From: an uncultured Prevotella sp.
Lineage (GTDB): Bacteria > Bacteroidota > Bacteroidia > Bacteroidales > Bacteroidaceae
DNA length: 62,041 nucleotides
Assembly: GCA_900317685.1 (NCBI GenBank)
Contig: ONHQ01000015.1
Coordinates: 1-62,041, forward strand
Direction: 5' to 3'
Shown: in pieces, positions 405 through 46,281 of the stretch
Layout of the letters: the number at the start of each line of letters is the position of its first letter
Numbering within the stretch: the stretch's first letter is position 1
The notes under the pieces: generated by a model
What the model saw: the letters and a program-made list of their open reading frames with translations, nothing else
Database searches by the model: none
Told to the model about the DNA's origin: nothing
Program-made: the position numbers and the translations under genes

Positions 405-749
405 CTGAGAATGCGATTTTCTGAAACAAGTGGGTATTTGACGGAAAAGACGTGAATTTCAGCACATTTCTACAACTCACTGAAAGCCAATCACTTGTAA
501 TTTGCCAACACACTTTCTTCCTTTGATACTACTGATTTGCTCTTGTCAGAAAGCCTTTCTGACCCTATCAGCACGCTTTACTGACCACCTCAGAAACGGT
601 TTCTGACCACTACAGAAACCGTTTCTGATCACTACAGAAAGCCTTTCTGATAAGAAGACAATGATTTTTGCTGGATTTCACAAGCCTTTTCTGCTCAAAA
701 GCCGCCATTATTCTCTCTAGAATACAAGAGAAAGTTGACAGACTTTTGT
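405..749. repeat. ~345-bp dispersed intergenic element, copy 1
   Basis: This stretch shares both ends with a second region at 45938-46281. The left end is CTGAGAATGCGATT here and CTGAGAATCGATT there. The right end is a 37-bp block (713-749) that matches 46245-46281 at 32 of 37 positions and starts CTCTCTAGAAT. Length is 345 bp here and 344 bp there. The interior differs in sequence but in both copies holds 22-bp-period repeats. The right end lies 10 bp beyond the stop codon of the DUF4294 gene. No ORF of note is inside. It may be a non-autonomous mobile element or a transcribed 3' UTR element. Confidence 0.6.
547..656. repeat. 22-bp tandem array, 5 units
   Basis: Units start at 547, 569, 591, 613 and 635, exactly 22 bp apart. 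Each holds a small inverted repeat of the form CAGAAA-nnn-TTTCTG followed by a spacer such as ACCACTA. The units differ by point changes that often keep the dyad, for example GCC, CGG or CCG in the centre. Confidence 0.85.
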
Positions 750-759
750 AAAGCTAATT

Positions 760-1437
760 CTACAGCTGTCCCGCCTCCACGAGGAGCACGACACGCTCTG
801 TGAGGCGGTCGACGCCCTTGGGCTCATAGTCCTTTTTCAGGCTGGCGCCAAACACCCAGGCGAAGGCTTGGTAGAAGCCGGCACGCACGGGACCGAGAAA
901 AGCTTTGATGAGGTCGTAGCTGGAGCTGTTGCATTCGCGATAGACGAGCTTGATGAGCAGCTTACCCTGGCTGTAGGTGAGCTTCTTCATGCGTGGCGTG
1001 TATTCCTTCTTGATGTCGGCCTCCACGCGCTTCATGTGCTCGTCCTTGGCCTTCTTGTTGGGCAGTGTCTCGAGGTAATCGCCGGTCTCGATGATGATGC
1101 GGTTGACTTCCTTGGCAATGGGGAGCACTTTCTTCACATTGTAGACCAGGCGGTTGAAGGCAGCACGCTCCTGCGCGTTCTTGAAAACAGGCTGAGTGAA
1201 CACCCACACATTATTGAGTTCTACATACTGGATGGAGTCACGCCCCATGAGCACCTTGCCTACCTTCACCATCGGCACGAAGGTGGGGTTGTCCATATCC
1301 ACCTGCATATCCTCGGGATTGACATGGCCCGGATGGTCGATGTCGCCCTGTGCATGGGCGGCAACCACCATGCAGAGACACACGGCAACCAGCGCGACAT
1401 GCTTCCACATTCTGATGATGTAATCTGCAACCTTCAT
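760..1437 (-). CDS. DUF4294 family exported protein
   Basis: An exported protein of 225 residues of unknown function. An N-terminal signal peptide ends at VVAAHA, so the mature protein would start with Gln. The rest is charged and probably helical, with a Lys/Glu-rich stretch (KKAKDEHMKRVEADIKKEY) and a Tyr-Arg-Glu-Cys segment near residue 175. It resembles DUF4294 proteins, a Bacteroidota-specific family. A TAATTTTG box (1446-1453) lies 8 bp before the chosen ATG; the ATG at 1410, starting MWKHVALVAV, is an equally good start and would leave a normal leader. No partner gene suggests a role: the upstream neighbour is the YejM-like gene, across about 400 bp of repeats. Confidence 0.75.
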   Translation of the reverse strand: MKVADYIIRMWKHVALVAVCLCMVVAAHAQGDIDHPGHVNPEDMQVDMDNPTFVPMVKVGKVLMGRDSIQYVELNNVWVFTQPVFKNAQERAAFNRLVYNVKKVLPIAKEVNRIIIETGDYLETLPNKKAKDEHMKRVEADIKKEYTPRMKKLTYSQGKLLIKLVYRECNSSSYDLIKAFLGPVRAGFYQAFAWVFGASLKKDYEPKGVDRLTERVVLLVEAGQL

Positions 1438-1445
1438 AACAGCCG

Positions 1446-1453
1446 CAAAATTA
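1446..1453 (-). promoter_or_regulatory. Promoter -7 box for the DUF4294 gene
   Basis: TAATTTTG on the minus strand, 8 bp before the ATG at 1437 and 35 bp before the alternative ATG at 1410. Confidence 0.55.
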
Positions 1454-1605
1454 CACAGATTTGGGCTGATACGGAAATAAATTAAGTTATATTTTGATGA
1501 CTTTCGCTCTCTCAGCGCAAAATCGTCTGATACGACCATCCTTCCTTTCTGCTTCAACAATAAAAGGAAAGAGACAGAAAGCAAGCCCAAAGAAGAAAGT
1601 ATGAC

Positions 1606-1737
1606 AGAATTGAGAATTTGCGAAGAGAGAATTGAGAATTTGCGAAGAGAGAATTGAGAACTTTTCGTTGGAGAATTGAGAACTTTTCGTTGGAGAATTG
1701 AGAATTTATAGCGTCAGAATTGAGATATATTCCTGAT
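1606..1737. repeat. 22-bp tandem array, 6 units
   Basis: Units beginning AGAATTGAGA start at 1606, 1628, 1650, 1672, 1694 and 1716, exactly 22 bp apart. Units 1 and 2 are identical, 3 and 4 are identical, and 5 and 6 diverge in the second half. The rest of the 1438-1850 gap holds only the DUF4294 promoter and the palindrome listed next. Confidence 0.92.
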
Positions 1738-1755
1738 TCCATTGCAATGGAATCA
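1734..1755. repeat. 22-bp perfect palindrome after the array
   Basis: A perfect dyad centred on ATTGCAAT, directly after the sixth 22-bp unit and itself 22 bp long. It could be a protein-binding site or a cruciform; there is no T-tract to support a terminator. Confidence 0.7.
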
Positions 1756-1850
1756 AGAATACTACCCAATATAAAGAGTGGATAACGCCTCTCGCCTATT
1801 CTCCCAGCGAGGTCGTTGGGCGGCAAGTCCGTGAGGCGGTTCCAATCTGT

Positions 1851-3665
1851 CTATTTCTTGAAATAGCGGTTCAGGCAATCCATTGCCTGATTGAACTGCT
1901 TCACGTTGACATGATAGCCGGGAAGCGGACGCAGATGCTTGTCGGTAATTGTCAGCGAGCCGTCGCCCTCCTTCTTCAGAATCACGTCACCCGGAGCGAT
2001 AAAAGCATATTGCAGATCACCGCCCACCACCTGCCAGGCACGGGAAGCGTGGCTGGCAGAAAGCAGATGACCGACGCTGTAGTCCGAGATTGGGTTGGTC
2101 ACGCCCAGATAGTCGTGCATCATCGTGGGCACGATGTCGTAGTGTGTCGTGCGGTAGGCATATTGATGGGGCTTCTGTCCGGGGATATGCAGGATCAGCG
2201 GCACGCAGACCTGCCAGCGCGAGAAGTTACCGTTGTGCGTCCAATAGTTCATATGGTTCTCATTGAACTCCTGTCCGTGGTCACCGGTGAGCATGATGAT
2301 CGTGTTCTTGTCGAGTCCCTCACGCTTCAGCGCCGTGAACACCTGGGCCAGGAAGAGGTCGATGTTGTAGCAACAGTTGCGATAGAGGTTGAAAAACGGC
2401 GTGGGGTCCATGTCGTTGGTCAGTTTGGAATAGTCAGCCTCTGACCATGCCGGACGGAAAGGCTTGTTTTTGTCAGCCGGCAAACCGATGGCATGGGCGA
2501 GATCATAGAAGAGCATGGAATAGAAAGGCTTGCCCGATTTCTTCAGTTCGGGCAGCTCACGGATGAAGTCATCCGTGATCCGCTTGTCACGGTCGTAGGT
2601 GGTTGCTCCCGGAGTATCTGTTTGCAGATGGGGCACGCGCTGGAAGACGATGCGGGAGAATGGCGGATTCTTCAGCGTGGCACTGGCGTGGATGCGTATG
2701 TTGTAGCCTTCGTCCAAGAGCGTGTTGATGAAGGGCGGACTGACATGGCCGCTCTCCATGCTGTTCCAATAGATCGACGGCACACTGAAGAACATGCCGA
2801 AGATGGAATAGCGCGTACCGTTGGAACTGCTGAAATGGTTGTGGTACCACTGATTGTCCATAGCAAACTGCCAGGCCGCTGGCATCGTTTCCTTGGTCAG
2901 CGTACGCATGTTCCACGAGTCAATGAGTATGAAGATAATATTCGGTCGCTTGGCGTTGGCGACCTTCAATGGATGCAACGGGAAGTTGACATTGCCTTTT
3001 CCCACATTTGCGTTCAGCACATTGGGAGAATGCTTCACTCCCCAGCTCTCCAGCGTACGGGTAGCTTCCAATGGAAAATAATAGGGAATCACACGCGTGG
3101 AACTGATGATGGAGCCACGCTGCACGAAGGCGCCGTAGGTGTGCAGACCGTTGGCTACCAGCAGACAGCCCACCAGCCCCCAGGCCAGACCACGGGAAAG
3201 GCGACGGCTGAAGCTCCATTTGCCCGCCAGCCACCAGAGTCCGAGGACCACGAGCACAAGGAAGGCGATGATTAGCGCCGACTTGAAGTAGACGACACCT
3301 CCAATATTGAAGATCTCGCCCGCACCGGGTCCGGTGAGCATATTGAGGATGATGCCGTTGAAATGGAAGCGATAGATGCGGAATATCTCCAGATTAGCCA
3401 CGATCAGCACCAGCAGAAGACACTCTGCAACAATGGTCAGCGTGCGGCCGATCTTCTCATGATGGGTCAGTGCACAAGGCAGACAGAACACCAAGAACAC
3501 GGCGAGGTTGATCAGCGCCGCATGGGACAGACACGAGGTGACAAAATAGCACATGCCCACAAAGTCCATCATCTCTGCCGTGGTATCAGCAAAGAGATAA
3601 CAGAAGAACAACAGCCCCATGAGCAAGGTCGTCAGGAAATAGAAACTTATAAATTTTGCTTTCAT
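1851..3665 (-). CDS. YejM/PbgA-like inner-membrane sulfatase-family protein
   Basis: A protein of 604 residues with about five membrane segments in the first 180 residues, then a periplasmic alkaline-phosphatase/sulfatase-fold domain. The domain opens at RPNIIFILIDS (D249), has a Thr in NGTRYSIFG (T284) where LtaS-type enzymes carry the nucleophile, and GDHGQEF at 461-467. Size and layout match YejM (PbgA/LapC) of enterobacteria, about 586 residues, which senses periplasmic LPS and tunes LpxC stability, rather than lipoteichoic acid synthases; this organism should have no lipoteichoic acid. Whether the domain is catalytic here cannot be told. The LPS-assembly genes nearby suit an LPS role. 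A TAACTTTG box ends 4 bp before the ATG, so the mRNA is probably leaderless. Confidence 0.75.
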   Translation of the reverse strand: MKAKFISFYFLTTLLMGLLFFCYLFADTTAEMMDFVGMCYFVTSCLSHAALINLAVFLVFCLPCALTHHEKIGRTLTIVAECLLLVLIVANLEIFRIYRFHFNGIILNMLTGPGAGEIFNIGGVVYFKSALIIAFLVLVVLGLWWLAGKWSFSRRLSRGLAWGLVGCLLVANGLHTYGAFVQRGSIISSTRVIPYYFPLEATRTLESWGVKHSPNVLNANVGKGNVNFPLHPLKVANAKRPNIIFILIDSWNMRTLTKETMPAAWQFAMDNQWYHNHFSSSNGTRYSIFGMFFSVPSIYWNSMESGHVSPPFINTLLDEGYNIRIHASATLKNPPFSRIVFQRVPHLQTDTPGATTYDRDKRITDDFIRELPELKKSGKPFYSMLFYDLAHAIGLPADKNKPFRPAWSEADYSKLTNDMDPTPFFNLYRNCCYNIDLFLAQVFTALKREGLDKNTIIMLTGDHGQEFNENHMNYWTHNGNFSRWQVCVPLILHIPGQKPHQYAYRTTHYDIVPTMMHDYLGVTNPISDYSVGHLLSASHASRAWQVVGGDLQYAFIAPGDVILKKEGDGSLTITDKHLRPLPGYHVNVKQFNQAMDCLNRYFKK

Positions 3666-3669
3666 GCTG

Positions 3670-3677
3670 CAAAGTTA
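3670..3677 (-). promoter_or_regulatory. Promoter -7 box 4 bp before a start codon
   Basis: TAACTTTG on the minus strand, then CAGC, then the ATG of the YejM-like gene. Transcription would start at or within a base or two of the start codon. Confidence 0.65.
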
Positions 3678-3756
3678 GCTATTTTTTCTGATTCCCTATC
3701 CTCCCGGTGGCTTTTCATGCGCTGTCGGGCTTGTCTTTTCTTGCTATTTCTGCCTC

Positions 3757-20514: not shown

Positions 20515-20654
20515 TGCTTCTGGTGGTGCTTCCACGACAAATGGCAGTCTCCGCAAGGATCATCGCTACGCGAGATGCTCCGTCGATTAAGGCGTCGCAT
20601 TTATCGGCACAGCGGCTATTTTCCTTTTCTTCTCGGTGATGTCGTTGATGACAA

Positions 20655-20808
20655 GCACTGTTCTAATGGCATCAAAGCAGTGTTCTTATGACATCAAAGC
20701 ACTGTTCTCGCGGCATCAAAGCACTGTTCTCACGGGGTCAAAGCACTGTTCTCACGGGATCAAAACTGGGTTCGTATGAGGTTGAAACAATGTTCCCAAT
20801 ATGGTAAT
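20655..20808. repeat. 22-bp tandem array, 7 units
   Basis: Units beginning GCACTGTTCT start at 20655, 20677, 20699, 20721, 20743, 20765 and 20787, exactly 22 bp apart. Four are nearly identical, and the last two have drifted (AACTGGGTTC, ACAATGTTCC) yet keep the spacing. The half-unit GCATCAAAG is shared with the array at 46101-46166. Confidence 0.92.
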
Positions 20809-20824
20809 GCTATAGAAAAAGATC

Positions 20825-20864
20825 GTTCGCTGCGTAGGGAATGATCTTTTCCTACGCAGCGAAC
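20825..20864. other. Strong hairpin with offset second inverted repeat
   Basis: A perfect 14-bp stem pairs 20825-20838 with 20851-20864. Its loop contains GATCTTTT (20843-20850), which is the exact complement of AAAAGATC immediately before the stem (20817-20824). The two pairings compete rather than stack. No T-tract follows. Confidence 0.65.
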
Positions 20865-21300
20865 GCTTGTTTGTCAGGCTGCAAAACCAAGTTCCACGCA
20901 TTGACCAACTCGCCGGCATCAACAGCTTTCAGAACTTGATGGACATTTCCTTGTCCAATTCCAAATGACTATCTCTTCACGCCAAAACGCCACGCCAGCC
21001 TGTTTTCAAAGTTTTCCCTGCTGTGATGCAAGCCTGAGAAACAAAGGGTGCCACACTTGCATCACAGCAAGGATTTTATTTGTTTTTGTAAAAGGTATCG
21101 TGTTCATGAGCTCTCTCCTCCAACACAGTGTTGATCCGGTGCACCTGTCCGTGCCACGACAAATATCCATTGCGCCGAAGATATTTGGTTAGGTCTTCGT
21201 GGCATCCAGCCACGGACTTCTGCCCCTAAGCCCATTTATCTTTCAATTTGATGACGCGCCATACATAATAATAAGGAGTTGCAGGCGTTTTAATAAGGCT

Positions 21301-25022: not shown

Positions 25023-25148
25023 TTATTTCTTGAAGTCCGCTTCATTATTTCTTGAAGCCCACTTCATTATTACTTCAAGCCCGCTTCATTATTTCTTGAA
25101 GCAATCAGCTGCTTATATTGAAGTCCTGCTTCCTTATTTCTTGAAACC
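25023..25148. repeat. 22-bp array that includes the sirtuin stop codon
   Basis: Units of the form TTATTTCTTGAAG start at 25023, 25045, 25067, 25089, 25113 and 25134 (spacings 22, 22, 22, 24, 21). The last unit starts with the three bases that form the TAA stop of the sirtuin gene and continues into its last codons. Read on the minus strand, the coding tail ...TTCAAGAAATAA is repeated downstream five times. Confidence 0.88.
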
Positions 25149-25841
25149 CAGTATCTCGCAGAGCTCCTTCATTCCCTCTGACGCACCTTTCTGAATGTGC
25201 GTGAATTTGCCATTAGGCGCATTGAACACCGGGTCTGGATCGATCAGATAGACCGGACATCCCTGCGGGGCGTACTGTACGAGTCCGGCAGCGGGATAGA
25301 CATTGAGCGACGTGCCGATGATGACAAAGATGTCGGCTTTCATCGCCTCGCGCGCCGCAGGCTCAAGCATGGGCACGCTCTCGCCAAAGAAAACGATGAA
25401 CGGACGGAGCAGCGAACCGTCGCCGGCTTTGGTACCTGGCACCACATCGCTGTGCTCAGGCGTGAGCTGCTGGATATAGCGCTCGTCGTAAGGATCGATA
25501 CTCGAACACACTTTGGTCAGCTCGCCGTGCAGGTGTATGACATGCGTGGAGCCTGCCTTCTCATGGAGATTGTCCACGTTTTGCGTCAGCACGCTCACGT
25601 CGTAGTCTCTCTCCAAGGCGGCGACAAGCCGGTGACCCTCGTTGGGCTCAGCCTGCCAAAGCTTGTGCCGAAGCATGTTATAGAAGTTTGTCACCAACGT
25701 GGGATCGGCCTCCCACCCCTCGTGCGAGGCTACCTGCTCCACCGGATAGTTCTCCCACAGTCCGTCATTACCACGGAACGTCTTGAAACCACTCTCTACC
25801 GACATACCGGCACCCGTAAGGAAAACAATTTTCTTCTTCAT
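25134..25841 (-). CDS. Sirtuin-type NAD-dependent protein deacylase
   Basis: A SIR2-family enzyme of 235 residues that removes acyl groups from Lys using NAD. The NAD motif is FLTGAGMSVESGFKTFRG, then TQNVDNLHEKAG and the catalytic His in VIHLHGELTKV, then IIGTSLNVYPAAGLV. Only one Cys (KVCSS) lies where zinc-binding CobB proteins have four, so it is probably a zinc-free form of the kind common in Bacteroidota. The ATG at 25841 is chosen because a TATTTTTG box (25875-25882) would leave an upstream in-frame codon at 25913 untranscribed. The 3' end merges into a repeat array. Confidence 0.88.
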   Translation of the reverse strand: MKKKIVFLTGAGMSVESGFKTFRGNDGLWENYPVEQVASHEGWEADPTLVTNFYNMLRHKLWQAEPNEGHRLVAALERDYDVSVLTQNVDNLHEKAGSTHVIHLHGELTKVCSSIDPYDERYIQQLTPEHSDVVPGTKAGDGSLLRPFIVFFGESVPMLEPAAREAMKADIFVIIGTSLNVYPAAGLVQYAPQGCPVYLIDPDPVFNAPNGKFTHIQKGASEGMKELCEILGFKK

Positions 25842-25874
25842 CTTCTTATTGCCTTTAGAACTGTTATTATACCA

Positions 25875-25933
25875 CAAAAATAATATTTTTTTCGCAATAT
25901 GCCGCTTGTTCACAATTAAAAATAGTATCTTTG
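25875..25933. promoter_or_regulatory. Divergent promoters for the sirtuin and FKBP genes
   Basis: TATTTTTG on the minus strand (25875-25882) faces the sirtuin gene; TATCTTTG on the plus strand (25926-25933) faces the first FKBP gene. Confidence 0.55.
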
Positions 25934-31139: not shown

Positions 31140-32183
31140 ATGACCCGAAAGAAAAGATCCATCCTTATCGTGACAAGCTGCTTATGTGTGGTCGCTGCCC
31201 TGGCAGTGGCCTTTTGGCCGGCAAAGACGGCATCGGTCGATGACACCGAGGATACAGAAGAAACAGAAAAGGTAGCACCCGTGGGGCCCGCCTTTAACGC
31301 TGACTCAGCCTACGCCTACACCAAGGCGCAATGCGACTTTGGCCCCCGCGACATGAACTCCAAGGGCCACGATGCCTGCGGCGAGTGGATCGTGGCACAG
31401 TTTGAGCGGCTCGGCTGCAAGGTGACGCGACAGAAAGCCGATCTCAAAGGCTACGACGGCACCATCCTCCACAGCATGAACATCATGGCGAGCTACAACC
31501 CCGCTGCCACCACGCGTATCATGCTCTGCGCCCACTGGGATTCACGTCCCTGGGCCGACAATGATCCCGACTCCACCAATTGGCACAAGCCCATCTTAGC
31601 GGCCAACGACGCTGCCAGCGGCGTGGCCGTGATGTTGGAACTGGCAAGACTGCTCGCCCAGAAGAGCGTTGCCGCCAAGCTGCCGCAAAACCTTGGCGTG
31701 GACTTCGTGTGCTTCGATGCCGAAGACTGGGGCACACCACAGTGGAGCGACAAGCAAGATGACGGAAGCTCGTGGGCACTCGGCGCGCAATATTTCTCCG
31801 CCAACCTGCCACAAGGCTACGCTCCGCGCTACGCCATCCTGCTGGATATGGTCGGCGGACAGGGGGCTCAGTTCTATCAGGAAGGCATGTCGAAACAATA
31901 TGCGCCCGAAATCGTGAAGAAGGTGTGGCGCGCTGCCCGTCAGGCCGGCTTTGGCAGTTTCTTCCCCAAGAGCGACGGCGGCATGATCACCGACGACCAT
32001 ATTCCCGTCAACCAAACGGCGAAGATTCCGTGTATCGACATCATTCCTTACTACCCCAACTGCCAGCAGAGCTCTTTCGGACCTACATGGCACACACTTG
32101 CCGACGACATGGAGCATATCGACAAAAACACGCTGAAAGCTGTCGGACAAACTCTCGTACAAGTCATCTTCTGCGAGAAATAA
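31140..32183 (+). CDS. M28-family protein, probable glutaminyl cyclase
   Basis: A protein of 347 residues with an N-terminal hydrophobic anchor (residues 8-26) and a zinc-hydrolase fold. The segments AHWDSRPWAD, ANDAASG (Asp157), FDAEDWG (Glu195) and TWHTLADD (His318) match the single-zinc site of animal-type glutaminyl cyclases, which related oral Bacteroidota also have, better than that of two-zinc aminopeptidases. It would convert N-terminal Gln of exported proteins to pyroglutamate in the periplasm. Several exported proteins in this window start with Gln after signal-peptide cleavage. The last codons and TAA stop are the first unit of a repeat array. Confidence 0.8.
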   Translation: MTRKKRSILIVTSCLCVVAALAVAFWPAKTASVDDTEDTEETEKVAPVGPAFNADSAYAYTKAQCDFGPRDMNSKGHDACGEWIVAQFERLGCKVTRQKADLKGYDGTILHSMNIMASYNPAATTRIMLCAHWDSRPWADNDPDSTNWHKPILAANDAASGVAVMLELARLLAQKSVAAKLPQNLGVDFVCFDAEDWGTPQWSDKQDDGSSWALGAQYFSANLPQGYAPRYAILLDMVGGQGAQFYQEGMSKQYAPEIVKKVWRAARQAGFGSFFPKSDGGMITDDHIPVNQTAKIPCIDIIPYYPNCQQSSFGPTWHTLADDMEHIDKNTLKAVGQTLVQVIFCEK

Positions 32184-32262
32184 AGACTCTCCTGCAAGAA
32201 ATGAAGATTGACTTCAGCGAGATATAAAGACCACCTTTAGCGAGATATAAAGACTAAAAAAG
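32173..32262. repeat. ~22-bp array that starts inside the glutaminyl-cyclase-like gene
   Basis: Four units of the form GCGAGAnATAAAGAC start at 32173, 32194, 32217 and 32240 (spacings 21, 23, 23). The first contains the last two codons (GAG AAA) and the TAA stop codon of the gene; the later units repeat the stop-containing stretch. Confidence 0.82.
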
Positions 32263-34834: not shown

Positions 34835-34844
34835 CACATCTTAT

Positions 34845-34888
34845 ATGCGAAAACAATCGCAGATCTATGCGGAGACAACCGCAGATCA
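34845..34888 (+). repeat. Two 22-bp repeats in the secDF leader
   Basis: Two adjacent 22-bp units, 34845-34866 and 34867-34888, both start ATGCG, share ACAA and end CGCAGATC. Each can form a short GCG/CGC hairpin. They lie 11 bp after the -7 box, so they would be in the mRNA leader. Confidence 0.75.
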
Positions 34889-34937: not shown

Positions 34938-37900
34938 ATGCAAAACAAAGGAATTGTCATTGCAACCGGCGTTCTCCTTACGCTCGTTTGCATCTTCTAC
35001 TTGTCATTCCCTATCGCCACGCATTACTACGACGAGCAGGCTGCCAAGTTGAAGGATCCCATCGCCCAGCAGGATTACAAGGATTCTGTGAAGTATTTGG
35101 GCGTCTACAGCTACCAGAAATGTCTTGAGACACAGATCGGTCTCGGTCTGGACTTGAAAGGCGGTATGAACGTTATCCTCGAGGTCAGCGTGCCTGATGT
35201 CGTTGAGAACCTCGCCGACCACAAGACCGACATGGCTTTTGTCAAGTCCATGAGAGACGCTCGTGCCGAGCAGGAGCGCACACAGGGCGACTTCGTCAGC
35301 CTCTTCATCGACGCTTATCACAGAAATGCTCCCGGACATCACCTCGCTGAGGTCTTCGCTACACAGGAACTTCAGGGCAAGGTCTCACCGACCAGCTCCG
35401 ATGCCGAAGTAGAGAAGGTCATCCGCGAAGAGGTCAACTCAGCCATCGACAACTCCTTCAATGTCGTCAGAACACGTATCGACCAGTTCGGTGTCGTACA
35501 GCCCAACATCCAGAAAGTGCAGGGTGCTGAGGGCCGCATCATGGTCGAGATGCCGGGTATCCGCGAGCCGGAGCGTATGCGTAAGCTGCTGCAGGGTAGT
35601 GCCAACCTGGAGTTCTGGGAGACCTACAACGCTCAGGAGATCGCTCCTTACCTCCAGCAGCTCGACAGCCGTCTGGCCAATGGCGACAGCGAGAGCGACA
35701 CGACCAAGGTAGCAAAGAGCGACAACACCAAGAAAGCCGCTGCCAAGAAACCCGCTACCACACAGGCTAAACCGAAGTTCAAGCTCAACAACGCCAAGAA
35801 GACCAGCGTACAGACCACTCCCGACGCTCAGCTTGCCGAGGCAAAGAAGCTGCATCCGCTGCTCGCCATGTTGCAGACTACCAACCAGGGTCTGAGCGTT
35901 GTCGGCTATGCCAGCGTCCGCGATACCGCAGCCATCAACCGCATCATCTACGGCGCAGTGGCCAAGCAGGTGCTCCCCACCGACCTGAAACTGCTCTGGA
36001 GCGCAAAGCCTGCTGACGTAGGCGCCAAGAACATCTTCGAGCTCCACGCGCTGAAGGTCACCACGACCAACGGACGTGCTCCGCTGGAGGGTGATGTCGT
36101 CACCGACGCTTCCGACCAGTTCAACAATATCACCGGTCAGCCTGAGGTCAGCATGACCATGAACTCTGATGGTGCACGCCGCTGGGCAGAGCTCACCAAG
36201 GCTAATGTGGGCAAGGCTATCGCCATCGTGCTCGACGGTGTCGTCTATTCCGCTCCTCGTGTCAACGGTGAGATCGACGGTGGACAAAGCTCCATCTCCG
36301 GTAACTTCACCATTGAGGATACCAAAGACCTGGCCAACACATTGAAGTCCGGCCGTATGCCTGCTCCTGCTCACATCGTTCAGGAAGAGGTTGTCGGTCC
36401 TACCTTGGGTGCACAGTCTATCCAGCAGGGTCTCATCTCCTTCGTCATTGCCTTCGTGCTGCTGATTGTCTTCATGCTGGCAATGTATAACATCATCCCC
36501 GGAAGCATCGCTGTTGGCGCTCTGCTCATCAACGTATTCTTCACGCTGGGTATCCTTACGTCGTTCCAGGCAGCCTTGACCATGTCCGGTATCGCCGGTA
36601 TGGTATTGTCACTCGGTACTGCCGTCGACGCCAATGTGCTGATCTATGAGCGTATCAAGGAAGAGCTGCGTGCCGGTAAGGGCATGAAGCAGGCCATCAA
36701 CGCCGGCTACAGCAACGCCTTCTCCGCCATCTTCGACTCCAACCTTACTTCGTTGATCACCGGTGTGATCCTGCTTCTTGTGGGTACAGGTCCTATCCGC
36801 GGCTTCGCAACGACCTGGATCATCGGTATCTGCTGCTCCTTCTTCAGTGCCGTGTACTTGACACGTCTGCTCTATGACTACAAGCTCAACCACGACAAGT
36901 GGATGCACTTGAAGTTCGACACCAAACTCTCCAAGAACCTCATGCAGGGCACGAACTACAAGTTCATGCACATGTTCAAGGCCAGCTTCTCTGTTTACGC
37001 TGTGTTCATCATCATCAGCATCATCAGCTTCGCAGTACGCGGACTGAGCCTGGGCATTGACTTCACGGGTGGCCGCAACTATGTCGTCACACTCGACAAG
37101 TCTGTTCCTGTAGAGGATGTGCGCAACGTACTGAACAACGCTTTCGTCAACACCAGCGGTCCTAACGCCGGCAAGCCTGCTACGACAAACGTCATCGCTA
37201 TCGGCACCGACGGCAAGACGATCCGTGTATCCACCAACTGGAACATCGACAGCAACAAGCCTACCGAGGACGACAAGGCTGAGACGATCCTCTACAACGC
37301 CTTGAAGAAGGGCGGCTTCGTCAGTCAGGCTAACGTCAACGCCTTCAAGAATCCTGATATCCGTCAGGGCGGCTCTATCATCAGTTCTTCTAAGGTCGGT
37401 CCGTCCGTCGCTAAGGACATCACGCGCAACGCCTTCATCAGTGTGGGTCTCGCCCTGTTCTTCATCTTCCTCTACATCTTGCTGCGCTTCCGCAACCTCG
37501 GCTTCTCCGTGGGTTCTATCGCCGCTCTTGCCATCGATACGACAATGGTTATCGGCCTCTACTCACTGTGCTACGGTTGGATTGGCTTCTCACTGGAAAT
37601 CGACCAGACGTTTATCGGTGCCATCCTGACGGTGATCGGTTATGATATCAACGACTCTGTGGTGGTCTTCGACCGTATCCGTGAGAACCTGCGCAAGCAT
37701 CCGAAGGGCAACAAGTACGATCTCTTCAACCTGAGTATCAACGAGACGTTGGCCCGTACCATCAACACGTCAGCCAGTACGCTCATCGTGTTGCTCGCCA
37801 TCTTCATCCTTGGTGGTGACTCCACACGCAGTTTCTCGTTCGCTATGATCATCGGTGTGTTTGTCGGTACGCTGAGCTCTATCTTCCTCGCATCGCCGAT

Positions 37901-37976
37901 CGCTTACCTCATCCTCGGCAAGAAGGGCAAGAAAGACGAGAAAGAAGCACTGGCCGAAGTACAGGCACAGGCATAA
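34938..37976 (+). CDS. secDF: Protein translocase subunits SecD and SecF, fused
   Basis: A protein of 1012 residues that uses the proton gradient to pull exported proteins out of SecYEG. The SecD half has its first helix at 5-28, the D1 motif LGLDLKGGMNVILEV near residue 72, P1 domain and six-helix membrane block (GIAGMVLSLGTAVDANVLIY); SecF starts near 665 (FKASFSVYAVFIIISIISF, GLSLGIDFTGGRNYVV) and ends in a Lys-rich tail. Residues about 247-296 are a low-complexity insert rich in Lys, Ala, Thr and Ser within P1. The 3' end is CACAGGCATAA, repeated 14 bp later as CACAGGCGTAA. Confidence 0.96.
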   Translation: MQNKGIVIATGVLLTLVCIFYLSFPIATHYYDEQAAKLKDPIAQQDYKDSVKYLGVYSYQKCLETQIGLGLDLKGGMNVILEVSVPDVVENLADHKTDMAFVKSMRDARAEQERTQGDFVSLFIDAYHRNAPGHHLAEVFATQELQGKVSPTSSDAEVEKVIREEVNSAIDNSFNVVRTRIDQFGVVQPNIQKVQGAEGRIMVEMPGIREPERMRKLLQGSANLEFWETYNAQEIAPYLQQLDSRLANGDSESDTTKVAKSDNTKKAAAKKPATTQAKPKFKLNNAKKTSVQTTPDAQLAEAKKLHPLLAMLQTTNQGLSVVGYASVRDTAAINRIIYGAVAKQVLPTDLKLLWSAKPADVGAKNIFELHALKVTTTNGRAPLEGDVVTDASDQFNNITGQPEVSMTMNSDGARRWAELTKANVGKAIAIVLDGVVYSAPRVNGEIDGGQSSISGNFTIEDTKDLANTLKSGRMPAPAHIVQEEVVGPTLGAQSIQQGLISFVIAFVLLIVFMLAMYNIIPGSIAVGALLINVFFTLGILTSFQAALTMSGIAGMVLSLGTAVDANVLIYERIKEELRAGKGMKQAINAGYSNAFSAIFDSNLTSLITGVILLLVGTGPIRGFATTWIIGICCSFFSAVYLTRLLYDYKLNHDKWMHLKFDTKLSKNLMQGTNYKFMHMFKASFSVYAVFIIISIISFAVRGLSLGIDFTGGRNYVVTLDKSVPVEDVRNVLNNAFVNTSGPNAGKPATTNVIAIGTDGKTIRVSTNWNIDSNKPTEDDKAETILYNALKKGGFVSQANVNAFKNPDIRQGGSIISSSKVGPSVAKDITRNAFISVGLALFFIFLYILLRFRNLGFSVGSIAALAIDTTMVIGLYSLCYGWIGFSLEIDQTFIGAILTVIGYDINDSVVVFDRIRENLRKHPKGNKYDLFNLSINETLARTINTSASTLIVLLAIFILGGDSTRSFSFAMIIGVFVGTLSSIFLASPIAYLILGKKGKKDEKEALAEVQAQA

Positions 37977-38070: not shown

Positions 38071-38136
38071 TATTTTGTCAGTCGTTTATTGCTATTTCGT
38101 CAGTCGTTCATTGTTATTTTTCCATTCACTCTTTAC
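38071..38136. repeat. 22-bp array that reaches the ADP-ribosylglycohydrolase stop codon
   Basis: Three units start at 38071, 38093 and 38115, exactly 22 bp apart. The first two read TATTTTGTCAGTCGTT and TATTTCGTCAGTCGTT; the third is diverged and contains the TAA stop codon (38133-38135) of the minus-strand gene. On that strand each unit ends in a stop-like TAA or TAG. Confidence 0.8.
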
Positions 38137-38927
38137 AGGTCTTCCTGCATCCGCTGGTAGTATTGCTGCACGATGTCGAGCATGTCGGGCTCCAGATAGG
38201 AGCAGGCTTGCTCATAGAGCGTGTCGGGCACTTCATAGAAGGCCTCAGCGATGGATCCGGTAATAGCGGCCTTGGTGTCGGTGTCGCCACGCGTCATGAC
38301 AGCATTGCGGATGGCATTTTCATAGCTGTTGCTGTCCAGGAAGCAACGGATGGCCCATGGCACTGTCTCCTGGCACGACGAGTCGAAATGTCCCTCAGCA
38401 CCAATTTTCATGATGTCATTGAGCGGTGGCAGCTCATAGCCGAAATTATGCTTTACAGCGCTCTCTATCTCTTCCTTGGTGATACGGCAGGTACGTAGCC
38501 AGTAGATGAGCGTAGCCACGCACTGAGCGCCCCGTATGGCCTCCTTATGCAAATGGCTGCACTGTGCGCTCTTCTTGGCCTCGTCCATCACCTCATGGTA
38601 ATCGTCGAAGAGCCAGCCCACGGGACTCACGCGCATGGCAGCACCGTTGCCCCATGAGTTGTGGGGTTTGGGCTCGTCACTTTTCAGCCATTCTGCAAAC
38701 ATATTGCCGTATCCGCCTTTGGGATTGGGATAGCGGCGGCCCCAGTCGTGCAGCGCTTCGCTATAGCTGCGATGGTTAAGGATAGCGTCAGCCACGGCAA
38801 TGGTCATGATCGTATCGTCGGTATAGTCGCAGCGTGGCTTATCGAGAAACAGTTCAAAATTGTCTGTGGGGATCTCGTCAAATTCAAACCGCGACCCCAC
38901 AATGTCGCCAATGATTGCTCCCAGCAT
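38133..38927 (-). CDS. ADP-ribosylglycohydrolase-family protein
   Basis: A protein of 264 residues of the DraG/ARH fold, which removes ADP-ribose from proteins or other acceptors with two metal ions. Motifs are MLGAIIGDIVGSRFEF, YTDDTIMTIAVADA (Thr-Asp-Asp metal site), WGNGAAMRVSPVGW and, at the C-terminal side, VMTRGDTDTKAAITGSIAEA (GDTDTxA metal site). No ADP-ribosyltransferase gene is in the window, so the target is unknown. It is monocistronic, with tRNA-Arg just upstream on the same strand. Confidence 0.92.
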   Translation of the reverse strand: MLGAIIGDIVGSRFEFDEIPTDNFELFLDKPRCDYTDDTIMTIAVADAILNHRSYSEALHDWGRRYPNPKGGYGNMFAEWLKSDEPKPHNSWGNGAAMRVSPVGWLFDDYHEVMDEAKKSAQCSHLHKEAIRGAQCVATLIYWLRTCRITKEEIESAVKHNFGYELPPLNDIMKIGAEGHFDSSCQETVPWAIRCFLDSNSYENAIRNAVMTRGDTDTKAAITGSIAEAFYEVPDTLYEQACSYLEPDMLDIVQQYYQRMQEDL

Positions 38928-38995: not shown

Positions 38996-39067
38996 TACTC
39001 TCACTGGGAATCGAACCCAGATCAAAGGTTTAGGAAACCTACGTTCTATCCATTGAACTATGAGAGC
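38996..39067 (-). tRNA. tRNA-Arg (anticodon CCT)
   Basis: A full cloverleaf of 72 nt without encoded CCA. Acceptor stem GCTCTCA pairs with TGAGAGT (first pair G-U), D arm GTTC/GAAC, anticodon loop TTCCTAA (anticodon CCT, reads AGG), 4-nt variable loop, T arm CTGGG/CCCAG with TTCGATT, discriminator A. One mismatch is at the top of the anticodon stem. Confidence 0.95.
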
Positions 39068-39080
39068 GACACTGTCCTAT

Positions 39081-39143
39081 ACACCTTATTATTATATAGG
39101 CTTTGCCTATATGATATATAGGCCTACACCTTATTGTATATAG
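39081..39143. repeat. Dispersed motif ACACCTTATT..., two copies, with a hairpin
   Basis: ACACCTTATTATTATATAG (39081-39099) and ACACCTTATTGTATATAG (39126-39143) lie just outside the 5' end of the tRNA gene. Between them is an 8-bp hairpin, ATATAGGC-TTT-GCCTATAT (39094-39112). The rest of the tRNA-trpS gap shows nothing else. Confidence 0.55.
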
Positions 39144-41752: not shown

Positions 41753-42844
41753 TTACCATTTATACTCACTCTCGGGGCTTTCCTTCAAGAACTGCAGGAA
41801 GCGTGCCACGCCCTCTTCCACCGGAATGGTAGGATTGTAGCCGAGCACACGGCGTGCCTTGGAGATGTCGGGGCAGCGGCGCTGTGGGTTGTTGGTGAGA
41901 TACTGCTTATCGTCGGAGGTGGCGTAGCGTACCTGTCCTTTGTACCCGAAGATCTCGCTGCCGGCTTTCTGATAGATCTCTGCGAGCTGTGCGATGGTGA
42001 TCTCAGGCTTCTCGATGCCAATGTTGAAATAGTCGTAGCTGCCGTGCAGGAGTATCTTGAAGTAACCGCATACCGAGTCAGCGATATAGCAGAACGTACG
42101 TGTCGGCGTTCCGTTGGAGAGGATGACGATGTCGTTGCCCTGCATCACGTTGAGCGCGAAGTCAGCAGGCACACGCTTGTCGCCGATGCGCATACCCGGC
42201 CCATAGTTGTTGAAGGGACGCACCACACCGATCGGCATGTTGTATTTCTGAGCGAAGAGCATGCACATCGTCTCGCCGAATCGCTTCGACTCGTCGTAGC
42301 AGCTGCGTGGCCCCGTGGCGCAGACATAGCCATAATAGTCCTCGGATGTGGGCACGTGGGCAGGGTCGGGATTGCCATAGAGCTCGCTGGAAGAGAAGAA
42401 GAGGAAGCCGCGCACCTGCTTCTCGCAATAGTAGTCGAGCAGACGACGCAGTCCCCAGATGTTGGCGTCAAGCGTCTCGATAGGGTACTGACGATAGAAC
42501 ATAGGCGAAGCGATGGATGCCATATGAATGATCAGATTGGCTTCGTCGGCTCCCGCCACGTCCTCGATCCGGTCTTTGATGATGTCGAACTTCTGAATGT
42601 CAAAGCGTGGGTTGGCCTCGAGCTTTTGTATCCATCCGGGGCGTCCCAGCATGAAGTTGTCGAGACCGATGACCTTTTTGATGCCGAGCTCCTCAGCCTC
42701 AGCGTCGAAGAAGTGCATCATATAGTATCCCAGGAAGCCGGCACATCCCGTGACGAGGATGGTGGCACCGCTAAACTTAGCACGCTCCTCAGGAGTGAGT
42801 CCCGCGAGGGTGTGCTTTATGTCATTGATGAGAATGTTTTCCAT
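41753..42844 (-). CDS. NAD-dependent epimerase/decarboxylase, UDP-xylose synthase-like
   Basis: An extended short-chain dehydrogenase of 363 residues. NAD motif: ILVTGCAGFLGYYMMHFF. Catalytic region: FFSSSELYGNPDP and CYDESKRFGE (Tyr, Lys), then RPFNNYGPGMR. The run ATGPRSCYDESKR, with Arg before Ser-Cys-Tyr, resembles the UDP-glucuronate decarboxylase signature (GxRxCYDEGKR) more than dTDP-glucose or CDP-glucose dehydratases. With the dehydrogenase encoded downstream, it would make UDP-xylose or its 4-keto intermediate. An alternative is a CDP-sugar enzyme serving RfbF of the same operon. Confidence 0.78.
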   Translation of the reverse strand: MENILINDIKHTLAGLTPEERAKFSGATILVTGCAGFLGYYMMHFFDAEAEELGIKKVIGLDNFMLGRPGWIQKLEANPRFDIQKFDIIKDRIEDVAGADEANLIIHMASIASPMFYRQYPIETLDANIWGLRRLLDYYCEKQVRGFLFFSSSELYGNPDPAHVPTSEDYYGYVCATGPRSCYDESKRFGETMCMLFAQKYNMPIGVVRPFNNYGPGMRIGDKRVPADFALNVMQGNDIVILSNGTPTRTFCYIADSVCGYFKILLHGSYDYFNIGIEKPEITIAQLAEIYQKAGSEIFGYKGQVRYATSDDKQYLTNNPQRRCPDISKARRVLGYNPTIPVEEGVARFLQFLKESPESEYKW

Positions 42845-42858
42845 GATGGTGATATGTG

Positions 42859-43698
42859 TTATTTTTCTTTGTTTTGTTGCTTGTCCACGCCTTTGAACTC
42901 ACGATAGGGCCTGTCGAGTTCCAGCAAGTCGAAGTTGTGCTGCTTGCGGCTTTCCATTGGTGGCAGCTTCATATAGTCGCCATACATCTGCGAGAGATAG
43001 TGCTGATAGTCCTTCACGCCCATAAAGGTCTTACCCTCAAACTCGTAGGGTGCATAGACGCCCTCCACGCTTTTGGGCATGACACCTTTGAGCCCGTCGG
43101 TATAGTCAGCGACATATTTCGTGGAGTCGTAGTCATAGCGTGTGAGTATGCGTCTGATTTTCTGTTGCAGTCGCGGCAGCGTGGTGACGCGTCGTGTGAG
43201 CAGGAATATCCATGAGCTGGGGCCGTGGCCATGGCGGTAAGGGTCGCGGTGGATCCAGTAGAGCGCCTGACGGAGAAACTCGTAATGCATGAAATGGGCC
43301 CAGCGCACCAGTCTGTTGGTGGGCACCGCATCGAGCGGAAACACGTCGACATAGATGCCGCCGAGGTAGCTCAGGTGCATGCGCTCAATCAAAGTGGTAG
43401 AGGCGTCCTGCACCTTGCCGAAAGGCAGCGGGTAGGCGGGGTCGTTCTCTGCGCATACAAACTCGTAGGGCTCGGGCAGCCATTCGCGGCTGTGAGCGAT
43501 GAAACGCTCATAGTCGGGGCGAGGCATGAGTATGTCCATGTCGTCATCCCATGGGATGAAGCCTTTGTGACGCACGGCACCGATGAGACTTCCGGCAAAG
43601 ATGCCGTAGGTCAGCCCATGGGCTTTGCAAGTCTTGTCGATAGCCTCGAGCACGCCAAGCATCTTTTCTTGCAGCGGTCTGATTTCGTAATTAGCCAT
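42859..43698 (-). CDS. LicD family phosphotransferase
   Basis: A protein of 279 residues of the LicD nucleotidyltransferase-fold family. LTYGIFAGSLIGAVRHKGFI is followed by PWDDDMDILMPRPDYERF, the metal-binding Asp cluster, then YLGGIYVDVFPLDAVP. The start at 43698 (MANYEIRPLQEKMLGVLEAI) is chosen because the upstream in-frame codons lie inside the RfbF reading frame and show no family similarity. It lies between RfbF and the epimerase in a sugar-nucleotide operon, so it probably decorates the glycan built from those sugars. The phospho-donor is unknown. Confidence 0.88.
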   Translation of the reverse strand: MANYEIRPLQEKMLGVLEAIDKTCKAHGLTYGIFAGSLIGAVRHKGFIPWDDDMDILMPRPDYERFIAHSREWLPEPYEFVCAENDPAYPLPFGKVQDASTTLIERMHLSYLGGIYVDVFPLDAVPTNRLVRWAHFMHYEFLRQALYWIHRDPYRHGHGPSSWIFLLTRRVTTLPRLQQKIRRILTRYDYDSTKYVADYTDGLKGVMPKSVEGVYAPYEFEGKTFMGVKDYQHYLSQMYGDYMKLPPMESRKQHNFDLLELDRPYREFKGVDKQQNKEK

Positions 43699-43741
43699 GA
43701 TATTGGTTGAATGAGAAAAAGCGGGAAGGAGCGTCCCACGG

Positions 43742-44509
43742 CTATTTCGCCCAGGGCGCATTGCCCTCCTCCCACATCTTGTTGAGCAGGTCGCGGTCGC
43801 GCACGGTGTCCATGCATTGCCAGAAGCCATCGTGGCGATAGCTGGCCAGCTCGCCTTCGGCCGCCAGACGCTCAAGGGGCTCGCGCTCCAAAGTAGTCTG
43901 GTCACCCTCGATATAGTCGAAAATCACGGGATTGAAGACAAAGAAACCGCCATTGATCCATCCCTGATTGACCTGTGGCTTCTCCTTGAACGAACGGACG
44001 AGGCCGTCGTCGTCGAGCTGCAGTTCGCCAAAGCGGGCCGTGGGGTGCACAGCGGTGACGATGGCTTTCTTTCCCGACCGGTGGTAGCTGTCCACGAGGT
44101 GGCTGATGTCGACATTGGAGACTGCGTCGCCATAGGTGCACATGAAGTCTTCGTTGCCGATGACATCCTTGAGCCGTTTGAGTCTTCCGCCCGTCATTGA
44201 GCCCTGCCCCGTGTCGACGAGCGTGACGCGCCAGTCGACGGGGTGCTCATTGATGTATTCCACGTGGTTGTTAGCCAGGTCGATGGTGAAGTCGTTGCCC
44301 AAAGAATAGTATTGCAGGAAATAGTTTTTGATGACCTCGCCCTTGTAGCCCAGAGCCACGACGAAGTCTTTGTAACCATACCGTGCATAGTGATTCATGA
44401 TATGCCACAGGATAGGCTTTCCGCCTATCTCCACCATGGGCTTGGGGATGAGCTTGGTGTACTCAGAGAGCCGGGTGCCGAAGCCGCCGGCAAGGATGAC
44501 CACTTTCAT
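43742..44509 (-). CDS. rfbF: Glucose-1-phosphate cytidylyltransferase
   Basis: A nucleotidyltransferase of 255 residues that makes CDP-glucose from glucose-1-phosphate and CTP. The pyrophosphorylase signature VILAGGFGTRLSEYTKLIPK is followed by PMVEIGGKPILWHIMNHYA, diagnostic of RfbF, and later FMCTYGDAVSNVDISHL and INGGFFVFNPVIFDYI. In 3,6-dideoxyhexose pathways RfbF works with CDP-glucose 4,6-dehydratase (RfbG), which is not recognisable in this operon. CDP-glucose may feed another route or the dehydratase may be elsewhere in the genome. Confidence 0.94.
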   Translation of the reverse strand: MKVVILAGGFGTRLSEYTKLIPKPMVEIGGKPILWHIMNHYARYGYKDFVVALGYKGEVIKNYFLQYYSLGNDFTIDLANNHVEYINEHPVDWRVTLVDTGQGSMTGGRLKRLKDVIGNEDFMCTYGDAVSNVDISHLVDSYHRSGKKAIVTAVHPTARFGELQLDDDGLVRSFKEKPQVNQGWINGGFFVFNPVIFDYIEGDQTTLEREPLERLAAEGELASYRHDGFWQCMDTVRDRDLLNKMWEEGNAPWAK

Positions 44510-44533
44510 GTATCAATTATATTTTTAGTGAAA

Positions 44534-45643
44534 CTATAGGCTGTTGATGGTGTCACAGATGAGTGTGATGTCGTCCTCGGTGAGCTCGGGATGCATAGGG
44601 ATGGAGATCACTTTCTGATACACATCCTCCGTCACGGGCAGATGGTAATCGGCCTTGAAATACGACAGCTGATGGTTGGGACGGTATTGCACGCCATACT
44701 GTATCTCTTTCTCTTTGAACAGTTGCTCGAGTTTTTCTCTCTTTCCGTGGAGGATTTCCAGCGGGAAGATGTGAGGTACGATCTCGTTGGCATAGTCCAT
44801 CTCGATGAGCTTCACGTCGGGGTTGTCTTTCAGTCTGCGGGTATATTCCAAGGCGATGCGGCGGCGGGCAGGCGCAAACTCTGGCTCAAAACGCCCCAGC
44901 TGCACCTTGCCGATAGCGGCGAAGATGTTGCTCATGTGGTAGCGGTAGCCCTGGTCCACCACGTCAAACACCCAGCTGCGCTGGCCGGCATAGCGCTTCT
45001 CCGAGTCTTTCTGCACACCGAGCAGGCGGGCGTCACTGACTTTCTGTATGGTGTCCTCGTTGGTGGTGAACACTGCGCCACCCTCGCCGGAGGTGATGTT
45101 TTTGATGCCGTCGAAGCTGAAGCAGACCACGTCGCCAAACGATCCGATCTTGCGGCCGCCGCATTTACATCCGAAGGCATGAGCGGCATCCTCGATACAG
45201 CGCAGTCCGTGCTCACGGGCAAAAGCCTGATACTGCTCGGCCATACGACAGTTGCTGCCATAGTAGACCGGCATCATCGCTGTGGTGCGCGGCGTGATGC
45301 GGCGCTCAGCGTCCTTGAGGTCGAGTGTCAGCGTCTCGGGATCTATGTCGCAACTCACTGGATGGCAACCGGCTCCGGTAATGGCCTGGTAAGATGAGAC
45401 AAAGGTAAACGACGGCACCAGCACGTCGTCGCCCGGCCGTGTGCAAGCCTGCACGGCTAAGTGAAGAGCCGCTGTGCCACTGTTGACGCACATACAGCGA
45501 CGGCCACCGCCGATGTAGTCTTGCAGCTCGTTTTCAAATTCTCCTACTGTGGCTCCCATTCCCAGGTAGCCGATATCTTCTATGACGTGGGCTACGGCAG
45601 CACTCTCTGCCTTGCCCACCACTGATTTTGATAATCTGATCAT
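44534..45643 (-). CDS. DegT/DnrJ/EryC1/StrS-family sugar aminotransferase
   Basis: A PLP enzyme of 369 residues. CVNSGTAALHLAVQACTRPG holds the PLP-phosphate region, IEDAAHAFGCKCGGRKIGSF the Asp that binds the pyridine nitrogen, and SFDGIKNITSGEGGAVFT the Schiff-base Lys. The family aminates keto-sugars attached to nucleotides; relatives (ColD, RfbH) act in dideoxysugar routes. It is the first gene of the operon, 24 bp before rfbF. Substrate is not inferable with certainty; a 4-keto or 3-keto product of the epimerase is a candidate. Confidence 0.9.
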   Translation of the reverse strand: MIRLSKSVVGKAESAAVAHVIEDIGYLGMGATVGEFENELQDYIGGGRRCMCVNSGTAALHLAVQACTRPGDDVLVPSFTFVSSYQAITGAGCHPVSCDIDPETLTLDLKDAERRITPRTTAMMPVYYGSNCRMAEQYQAFAREHGLRCIEDAAHAFGCKCGGRKIGSFGDVVCFSFDGIKNITSGEGGAVFTTNEDTIQKVSDARLLGVQKDSEKRYAGQRSWVFDVVDQGYRYHMSNIFAAIGKVQLGRFEPEFAPARRRIALEYTRRLKDNPDVKLIEMDYANEIVPHIFPLEILHGKREKLEQLFKEKEIQYGVQYRPNHQLSYFKADYHLPVTEDVYQKVISIPMHPELTEDDITLICDTINSL

Positions 45644-45937
45644 ACTTTATTTTAAGCGAATCAAGCGCCAAGTGCAAATTTACAAAATCTTTTTGACTTG
45701 CATTGTGGGTTGTAGGACTTTCTTTTAAAAAAGGGGGAATCTAAGGAAAAAACTACAAGAAATGAGGAACTATCGCCGATGGGCCCGTTCCTCATCAATG
45801 ATTCTTCAAGCCTGCGCTGTCCCCGTCCCCGCTGACGGACAGCGGCAAGACGGGAGCAGGCTAACGCGCCACGCTGTGGCATAAGCCTCAACTGGCTCAT
45901 ACGCACAATTGTCGGGTAAACTGACAAAAAACGGGCC
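45644..45937. other. Intergenic stretch with nested inverted repeats
   Basis: No gene. A compact structured block at 45809-45862 has an outer 7-bp stem (AGCCTGC paired with GCAGGCT) enclosing GCTGTCC paired with GGACAGC; CCGTC in the inner loop could also pair with GACGG outside it. Another hairpin, GCCAC-GCT-GTGGC, follows. The block ends 75 bp before the dispersed element at 45938. Confidence 0.5.
45675..45682 (-). promoter_or_regulatory. Promoter -7 box for the sugar-nucleotide operon
   Basis: TAAATTTG on the minus strand, 31 bp before the DegT-family gene. Confidence 0.5.
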
Positions 45938-46281
45938 CTGAGAATCGATTCTTTGCGAGCAAAGTGTCTCTTGCTCCAATTTTTCGCGAAAATAGCACAG
46001 TTTTATAATTGCGTGATTAACAATGACTTCCGAAAAACCAACATTTCTTGCGATTGTCAGAAAGGCTTTTTGATGAAAAATTCTCTAGAGAATTTTTCAT
46101 CAAAAAGCCTTTATGACCTTGTCAAAGTACCTTTTTCATCGCATCAAAGTACCGTTTTCTACCTTACATCTCACTGAAATGACATTTTCGCGATGGTTTT
46201 TTGTGACTTTGAACGTCGTTTTTGCTTTTCTGTGGTCTTCTACGCTCTCTAGAATGCAACAGAAAGTTGAAAGTGTTTTGT
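45938..46281. repeat. ~345-bp dispersed intergenic element, copy 2
   Basis: It shares its left end (CTGAGAATCGATT) and right 37 bp (46245-46281) with the element at 405-749 and is 344 bp long against 345. Inside are 22-bp-period units (starts near 46058, 46101, 46123, 46145) and a perfect 52-bp palindrome. The right end lies 11 bp beyond the stop codon of the mannosyltransferase-like gene, the same placement as copy 1 beyond the DUF4294 gene. Confidence 0.6.
46061..46112. repeat. Perfect 52-bp palindrome
   Basis: Both 26-bp arms match exactly, with no spacer; the centre is TTCTCTAGAGAA. With one mismatched pair the symmetry extends to 46057-46116. The outer part, AAAGGCTTTTTGATG, resembles the 22-bp units beside it, so it may be an inverted duplication of a unit and a half. 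Confidence 0.95.

Follow-up and report, generated by a model that had tools for sequence, protein, structure and literature searches.

A common 22-bp period of mostly unrelated tandem arrays in Prevotella and close relatives points to an undescribed copying process or binding rule

Unit lengths of minisatellites are usually idiosyncratic to each locus, and protein-binding repeats of about 22 bp, such as iterons and transposase end-site arrays (for example, 22-bp MuA or TnsB sites), are conserved in sequence and occur as part of a replication origin or a transposon. Here we analyse a 62,041-nucleotide stretch of DNA (the window) from an uncultured Prevotella sp. (GenBank assembly GCA_900317685.1, contig ONHQ01000015.1, positions 1 to 62,041), in which short tandem arrays of mostly unrelated sequence have a unit length of 22 bp in common. 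The closest single described element is found in Porphyromonas gingivalis, a member of the same order, Bacteroidales. As far as the available parts of its description go, this element, BrickBuilt, carries a 23-nucleotide tandem repeat of one sequence inside a miniature inverted-repeat transposable element (MITE), 19 times in strain ATCC 33277 (PMC4596501). It resembles window positions 20625–20941 in having intergenic repeats of near-equal length within a dispersed element; it differs in having one repeat sequence, whereas here one length extends across unrelated private units, and those same parts report no such period rule for Prevotella (PMC4596501). The archaeal Borgs provide the closest case of arrays whose locus-unique units are inferred to come from local DNA, with fast turnover and arrays that can begin within the end of an open reading frame (ORF). 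Borg repeats are A-enriched and perfect, and their length varies (18, 20 and 21 nt in the examples that the accessible text gives), whereas those described here are concentrated at 22 bp and have diverged units (PMC9879509). Two other classes are more distant, again on the portions of the sources available. TAACTGA heptamer direct repeats, known from Beggiatoaceae, Cyanobacteria and five Bacteroidetes, are taxonomically restricted and mostly intergenic (PMC4679880), but they are one 7-bp sequence, whereas here many sequences have one length and the 7/14-bp class is separate. Repetitive extragenic palindromes (REP; GTAG- and CGTC-tagged) are short, intergenic and palindromic, but are grouped into families by sequence rather than by a constant tandem step, and are set apart on that description (PMC3733652). 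A previous sequence-only reading of the window had held that no described system fits; our literature search agrees, with BrickBuilt and the Borg tandem repeats as the nearest, and yielded no recognised report of a common 22-bp period in Prevotella or Bacteroidaceae, within a coverage that left most subscription papers and bioRxiv preprints outside.

Arrays were detected with Tandem Repeats Finder (TRF) and, independently, with a self-offset scan (in the window, periods 8–60 and a match in 28/40 columns). TRF recovered 22-bp arrays at 547–650, 1606–1707, 20653–20764, 34844–34887 and 38071–38119; by eye, the 1606 array extends to about 1725 and the 20653 array to about 20808. Looser TRF arrays lie at 25023–25145 (22 bp with indels) and 32167–32255 (21–23 bp), and the scans of the window gave one further array of about 22 bp at 39080–39143. 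Six places in the offset scan had period 22 and four its harmonic 44; periods 8, 9, 23 and 28 had one each, and all others from 8 to 60 had none. Both methods thus found the arrays where the sequence-only reading had placed them, except that its last array, at 46058–46166, was only partly borne out: the offset scan gave period 22 from 46097, but the signal is weak, TRF missed it at a score of at least 30 and a palindrome dominates. The features, in window coordinates, are as follows.

547..656, unstranded: 5 × 22-bp array with a mostly palindromic unit, CAGAAA-N3-TTTCTG plus spacer.
1606..1737, unstranded: array of about 6 × 22 bp, AGAATTGAGAAYTT..., neighbours identical in pairs (44-bp steps).
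20625..20941, + strand: dispersed MITE-like element, a 22-bp array (20653–20808) and then a hairpin core.
25023..25148, − strand: six-unit array made of the final bases, stop codon included, of a Sir2-family gene (25134–25913, −).
32167..32262, + strand: about four units of 21–23 bp copying the 3′ end and stop codon of an ORF (31140–32183, +).
34844..34888, + strand: two 22-bp units in the leader of secDF (34938–37976).
38071..38136, unstranded: three 22-bp units where the 3′ ends of secDF and a convergent ADP-ribosylglycohydrolase-family gene (38133–38927, −) face each other.
39080..39143, unstranded: 2.9 units of about 22 bp adjoining a tRNA gene (38996–39067, −), with like units elsewhere in the genome sample.
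46058..46166, unstranded: weak 22-bp periodicity adjoining a long palindrome (about 46056–46117), from the offset scan only.

The same period prevails beyond the window. Our own-genome sample comprised the window and 60 stretches from other contigs, 953,723 bases of a 3.25-Mb genome in 86 contigs. Intergenic TRF arrays with a score of at least 50 numbered 23 at 22 bp, six at 23 bp, three at 21 bp and no more than eight at any other period. Such arrays are denser in the window than in the remainder, with 6 of the 23 in its 62 kb versus 17 in the other 892 kb, and one of the 23, in L036, is heptamer-like with 22% indels. A stricter offset scan gave 17 intergenic places at period 22, five at 44 and at most four elsewhere, and a Markov-1 control of the sample gave zero places at every period from 8 to 60. 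Periods are therefore not spread broadly across the genome sample, nor are the arrays confined to the window, the two outcomes that had been named as speaking against a general phenomenon; the arrays are general in Prevotella-type genomes. For the latter we scanned with the window SecDF protein and took the best 80 of 211 loci (named records, 1.45 Mb), labelled nearly all as Prevotella, Prevotellaceae or genera split off Prevotella; the closest among these 80 are Hallella mizrahii (L071) and UBA7764 (L074), with SecDF at 99% in each. These loci have 44 intergenic 22-bp arrays, the second class being period 7 with 35 arrays, and 45/80 have at least one array of 21–23 bp, coding or not. Stretches from the same GTDB genus (13, 0.26 Mb) have 13 arrays at 22 bp and no more than two at any other period. 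Arrays in the named isolates H. mizrahii, H. multisaccharivorax, Segatella baroniae, S. maculosa and S. copri speak against an artefact of metagenome-assembled genomes.

Outside the family, TRF found no 22-bp array in 18 stretches representing 18 further Bacteroidales families, in 20 same-class and 20 same-phylum stretches (8 genomes each), in 4 × 50 kb of E. coli MG1655 or in 30 short secF-centred phylum loci (105 kb). With the last of these kept out of the pooled count, the outside-family sample, drawn from Bacteroidales and Bacteroidota beyond the family and from E. coli, came to 1.36 Mb, and the contrast was 85 22-bp arrays in 355 kb of noncoding DNA in the family versus 0 in 143 kb outside (binomial p 3e-13); arrays of other periods, taken as a control, numbered 90 in the family and 11 outside (Fisher p 0.001). 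The p-values are approximate and the counts not fully independent, because some arrays are orthologous across loci (window 38071, L071 and L074; the 7.1-kb array of L071 and L074; L101 and L112) and some stretches overlap (G120/G121 with L071/L074, less than 700 bp each). The offset scan of the class sample gave one period-22 place in 400 kb, where TRF had none. Other genera of the family, for which the sample is thin (100 kb), had one TRF array each at 21, 22 and 23 bp; SecDF identity is 56–61% for the seven sampled genomes of other genera versus 64–75% for the five of the same genus. Coding regions were assigned by a longest-ORF rule, so some of the 22-bp arrays scored as coding (21 in the 80 loci and six in the own-genome sample, the 1606 array among these) may be intergenic.

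A period-independent offset test across the family sample (23/30 columns) gave 66 places at 22, with 12 at 21, eight at 23, 16 at 44, 25 at 14, seven at 11 and three at 33. Apart from its harmonic 44 and the 7/14 class, 22 stands alone, and a ladder of helical turns is absent. Since neither 11 nor 33 forms a peak, the suggestion that two helical turns underlie the unit length is unsupported. Two further kinds of array were seen alongside. Heptamer arrays (periods 7 and 14; units such as TCATTCA, ATAATGT and TTATACA) form a separate class, present in L025, L031, L036, L043, L044, L057, L058 and many of the 80 named loci. Long 23-bp arrays, one base off the main period, occur in the Prevotella genome at L022:241-441 (8.7 copies) and L040:14730-14979 (10.9 copies).

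The units themselves are mostly unrelated. In a comparison of 20 own-genome arrays, all with a consensus of 22 letters (19 from TRF and the 1606 array by hand), 12 have no relative among the others, as the sequence-only reading had claimed for most loci; the remaining eight fall into two dispersed sets, the 20625–20941 element and a pair of arrays located on two contigs. Other places in the genome sample also carry units of the 20653 and 39080 arrays. No motif is common to the 82 units compared: the best candidate for a universal motif, the 6-mer GATGAC, is present in just 8/82, largely from one repeat family. A unit with one conserved and one variable turn was likewise rejected, with variable columns clustered in one half in 0/32 arrays (p<0.05), as was an 11-bp sub-period, which is weak (0.289 at shift 11 versus 0.237–0.296 at shifts 1–10). 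Gene context shows no strong preference. For 109 arrays, 74 are in co-directional, 22 in convergent and 13 in divergent regions, which hold 224, 59 and 71 kb of noncoding DNA, respectively; the arrays roughly track noncoding DNA across these classes, with a mild deficit in divergent regions. Flanks lie within 30 bp of a stop codon in 18/118 cases and of a start codon in 11/100. The array alignments judged by eye numbered at most 46.

Several arrays differ in unit number between the window and its relatives. The array at 34844 has two units in the window versus one in both closest relatives, an exact 22-bp difference, and eight more distant secDF leaders have no clear second 22-bp unit by eye. 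At 25023 the window has six units versus one in two relatives, where the one copy present is formed by the end of the Sir2-type gene, stop codon included; at 32167 it has about four versus the single end of ORF 31140–32183 in two relatives, whose insert has its own 22-bp array. The site in H. mizrahii that aligns with the 547 array holds a different 22-bp array, of GTCA-N11-TGAC units, and the 1606 array has about two units there (by eye). The 38071 array is present in two relatives and gap-free inside the array in all three species. As in minisatellites, or variable-number tandem repeats, units of about 10–100 bp run head to tail and their number differs between close relatives, here at the level of species, not strains. 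In the few close species pairs, five indels are tandem-like, the same 22-bp event at 34844 being counted twice among them. Separately, the secDF leader of L068 has an 11-bp doubling, TATGCGTATTG TATGCGTATGG, about 60–90 bp upstream of the gene, in the same leader as the 22-bp doubling of the window.

Within arrays, neighbouring units are more alike than non-neighbouring ones (18 arrays of at least four units; mean difference 0.048, with 0/300 order shuffles as large). The difference is positive in 12/18 arrays, negative in five and equal in one, and 1-bp shifts in L068 and L082 exaggerate the effect. That neighbours are more alike on average fits stepwise local duplication. Retention of 22-bp arrays, rather than their birth at that length, is not favoured as the origin of the peak, as the 22-bp share is about equal at all identity levels (26/126, 22/76 and 22/93 arrays in the low, middle and high bins), although two-copy events are ambiguous.

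For the private arrays we favour, at slightly less than an even chance, an origin as minisatellites from lineage-specific stepwise duplication of local DNA in 22-bp steps. The grounds are a 22-bp peak confined to the family in this sample, the single-copy relatives, the likeness of neighbours and the mostly unrelated units; the single-copy relatives and neighbour likeness also support the earlier proposal of a process that duplicates local sequence. The missing ladder at 11 and 33 bp, and the failure to find a common motif, a conserved half-unit, covariation or a strong context preference, likewise count in its favour. Under such duplication, an enzyme or complex with a 22-bp ruler would add units to local DNA, perhaps by making two nicks or contacts at a distance of 22 bp and then filling in, or alternatively by replication slippage locked to a fixed footprint. 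Arrays would grow by copying a neighbouring unit or a pair of them (22 or 44 bp) and then drift, some of them within a dispersed MITE-like element. As 22 is not divisible by three, they would persist for the most part in intergenic DNA.

A number of observations weigh against this explanation, in which the agent with a 22-bp ruler remains hypothetical. Among two-copy duplications outside larger arrays, a count in which short periods have more chance matches, the excess at 22 bp is modest for identities of at least 95% (5/23, the next best period having 2), and at 85–95% identity there is no lone peak (13/92 at 22 versus 16 at 14, 13 at 18 and 11 at 16), so the 22-bp excess rests mostly on multi-copy arrays. 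Two-copy 22-bp arrays match at 82% versus 92% for other periods, a comparison that the TRF score threshold biases. The copies added at 25023 and 34844 are imperfect relative to the old unit, and the polarity at 34844 is not fixed, as loss of a unit in both relatives would also explain the difference. Finally, the dispersed element at 20625–20941 keeps its register at about 50% identity, which a pure mutation model does not predict.

This element has an array of seven units of type AARCANTGTTCTYAYGGRRTCA and then a hairpin core in which CTACGTAG-like 8-mers recur at 22-bp spacing. Copies with the core number 10 in the 0.95-Mb sample (14 core matches at no more than two mismatches, four of them dropped by eye as chance), and both closest relatives also have dispersed matches; among the features of the window it alone has the BrickBuilt-like arrangement of element plus array at many genome places. 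Counted upstream from the hairpin core, 43/52 recognisable units stand at an exact 22-bp register, six at −1 in two copies and three elsewhere, as scored with a matrix that was built at the 22-bp register from the other copies and misses unrecognisable units. Corresponding units 2–4 have a mean identity of about 0.52 across copies, a value lowered by two shifted copies, and most information lies at positions 1, 2, 7–10, 12, 16, 17 and 22 (AA at 1 and 2, TGTT at 7–10, T12, GG at 16 and 17, and A22). Orthologous noncoding DNA has 0.114 gap openings and 0.291 gap bases per mismatch; by a rough calculation, without constraint the element arrays should have accumulated tens of indels. From these alignments, the spacing and certain bases of the element look selected, and a role for protein binding therefore stays alive. 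A second dispersed repeat, a long hairpin (CTGCTGTGATGCAAG ... CTTGCATCACAGCAAG) at window 20956–21179, lies nearby and has matches on several other contigs, often apart from the 22-bp element.

The chief rival explanation is accordingly selection for spacing, in which a DNA-binding protein or set of paralogues would load side by side every 22 bp and keep the register while the sequence drifts; we consider it somewhat unlikely. The register and conserved positions of the dispersed element speak for it, together with the gap-free 38071 array in three species and the scarcity of indels in 22-bp arrays (0.129 indel bases per mismatch, 57/88 arrays without any, in TRF alignments that penalise indels) relative to the 0.291 gap bases of orthologous noncoding DNA. 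However, that ratio resembles the 0.116–0.177 of 14–20 bp arrays, no one motif of the kind found in operators or iterons is common to the arrays except inside the element family, the conserved half-unit is absent, promoters or 3′ ends are not clearly preferred, and arrays are gained or lost between species about 10% diverged. The earlier idea of a protein that needs a 22-bp spacing may hold, given the register and positions conserved in one dispersed element family. A mixture is quite possible, in which mutation makes the arrays and binding keeps them. One reading of this kind, which strikes us as doubtful, would be a dedicated, lineage-restricted enzyme with a 22-bp ruler that writes tandem copies of any local intergenic DNA in Prevotella and close relatives, some of them retained by a DNA-binding protein with the same footprint: a sequence-independent, length-specific system.

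It is improbable that the arrays are remnants of dispersed MITE-like or REP-like elements with a 22-bp minisatellite, as in BrickBuilt. The 10 core copies, the dispersed matches in two relatives and the presence of CTGAGATGAC in several H. mizrahii arrays agree with such an origin, but the 12 arrays without relatives and the gene-end arrays, made of that gene's own last bases, limit it to a minority and not the general case. Still less probable is a mechanism shared by bacteria at large, namely ordinary replication slippage or helical-phase slippage. Neighbour likeness and 44-bp steps are found in any minisatellite, and fresh two-copy duplications have many lengths; yet slippage does not account for zero 22-bp TRF arrays in 1.36 Mb outside the family, a contrast with the family that is less skewed for other periods, or for the missing peaks at 11 and 33. 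Least probable, and hardly credible, are RNA or DNA hairpin arrays selected for structure, with 22 nt as hairpin plus spacer. They appealed by eye, given the palindromic units at 547, 34844 and 25023 and in L264 and L082, and inverted-repeat scores of at least 5 are enriched (36% of 119 arrays versus 18% among 3200 intergenic 22-mers taken as controls and 14% among shuffled units). Most arrays nevertheless score below 5, and the covariation test failed: 34 palindromic arrays had 10 compensatory changes versus a permuted mean of 13 (177/200 permutations reach 10) and 170 one-sided changes, with G–T at 43 and A–C at 35, which speaks against selection for structure. At Rfam gathering scores, the window has no known RNA family besides a tRNA.

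One unit length across unrelated arrays, found in none of the sampled sister families, implies a molecular ruler in DNA duplication or binding, and the 22-bp period of this lineage points to an undescribed copying process or binding rule. Once the agent is in hand, the birth of tandem repeats, commonly put down to random slippage, could be tested in a genus that is common in the gut and mouth. The arrays might also provide strain markers in Prevotella, if copy number varies within species.

Some other repeats were recorded in the course of the analysis. By eye, 22-bp arrays in L247, L248, L115 and L071 are bordered by one inverted unit, as if opposite ends were joined. Recurrent tandem units of 25–28 bp, of type AGCCTCACCCCCGTGCCCCTCTCC, are present at window 58780–58835, L018:109-188, L043:15149-15201 and L059:7437-7484 and form a dispersed family, on a likeness judged by eye. 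At L037:6541-6803 there are about three tandem copies of a 92-bp stretch resembling a putative tRNA gene plus spacer. An array with 9-bp steps, GTCTATAGC, of nearly 12 units occupies window 49584–49689, upstream of ORF 47558–49573 (−).

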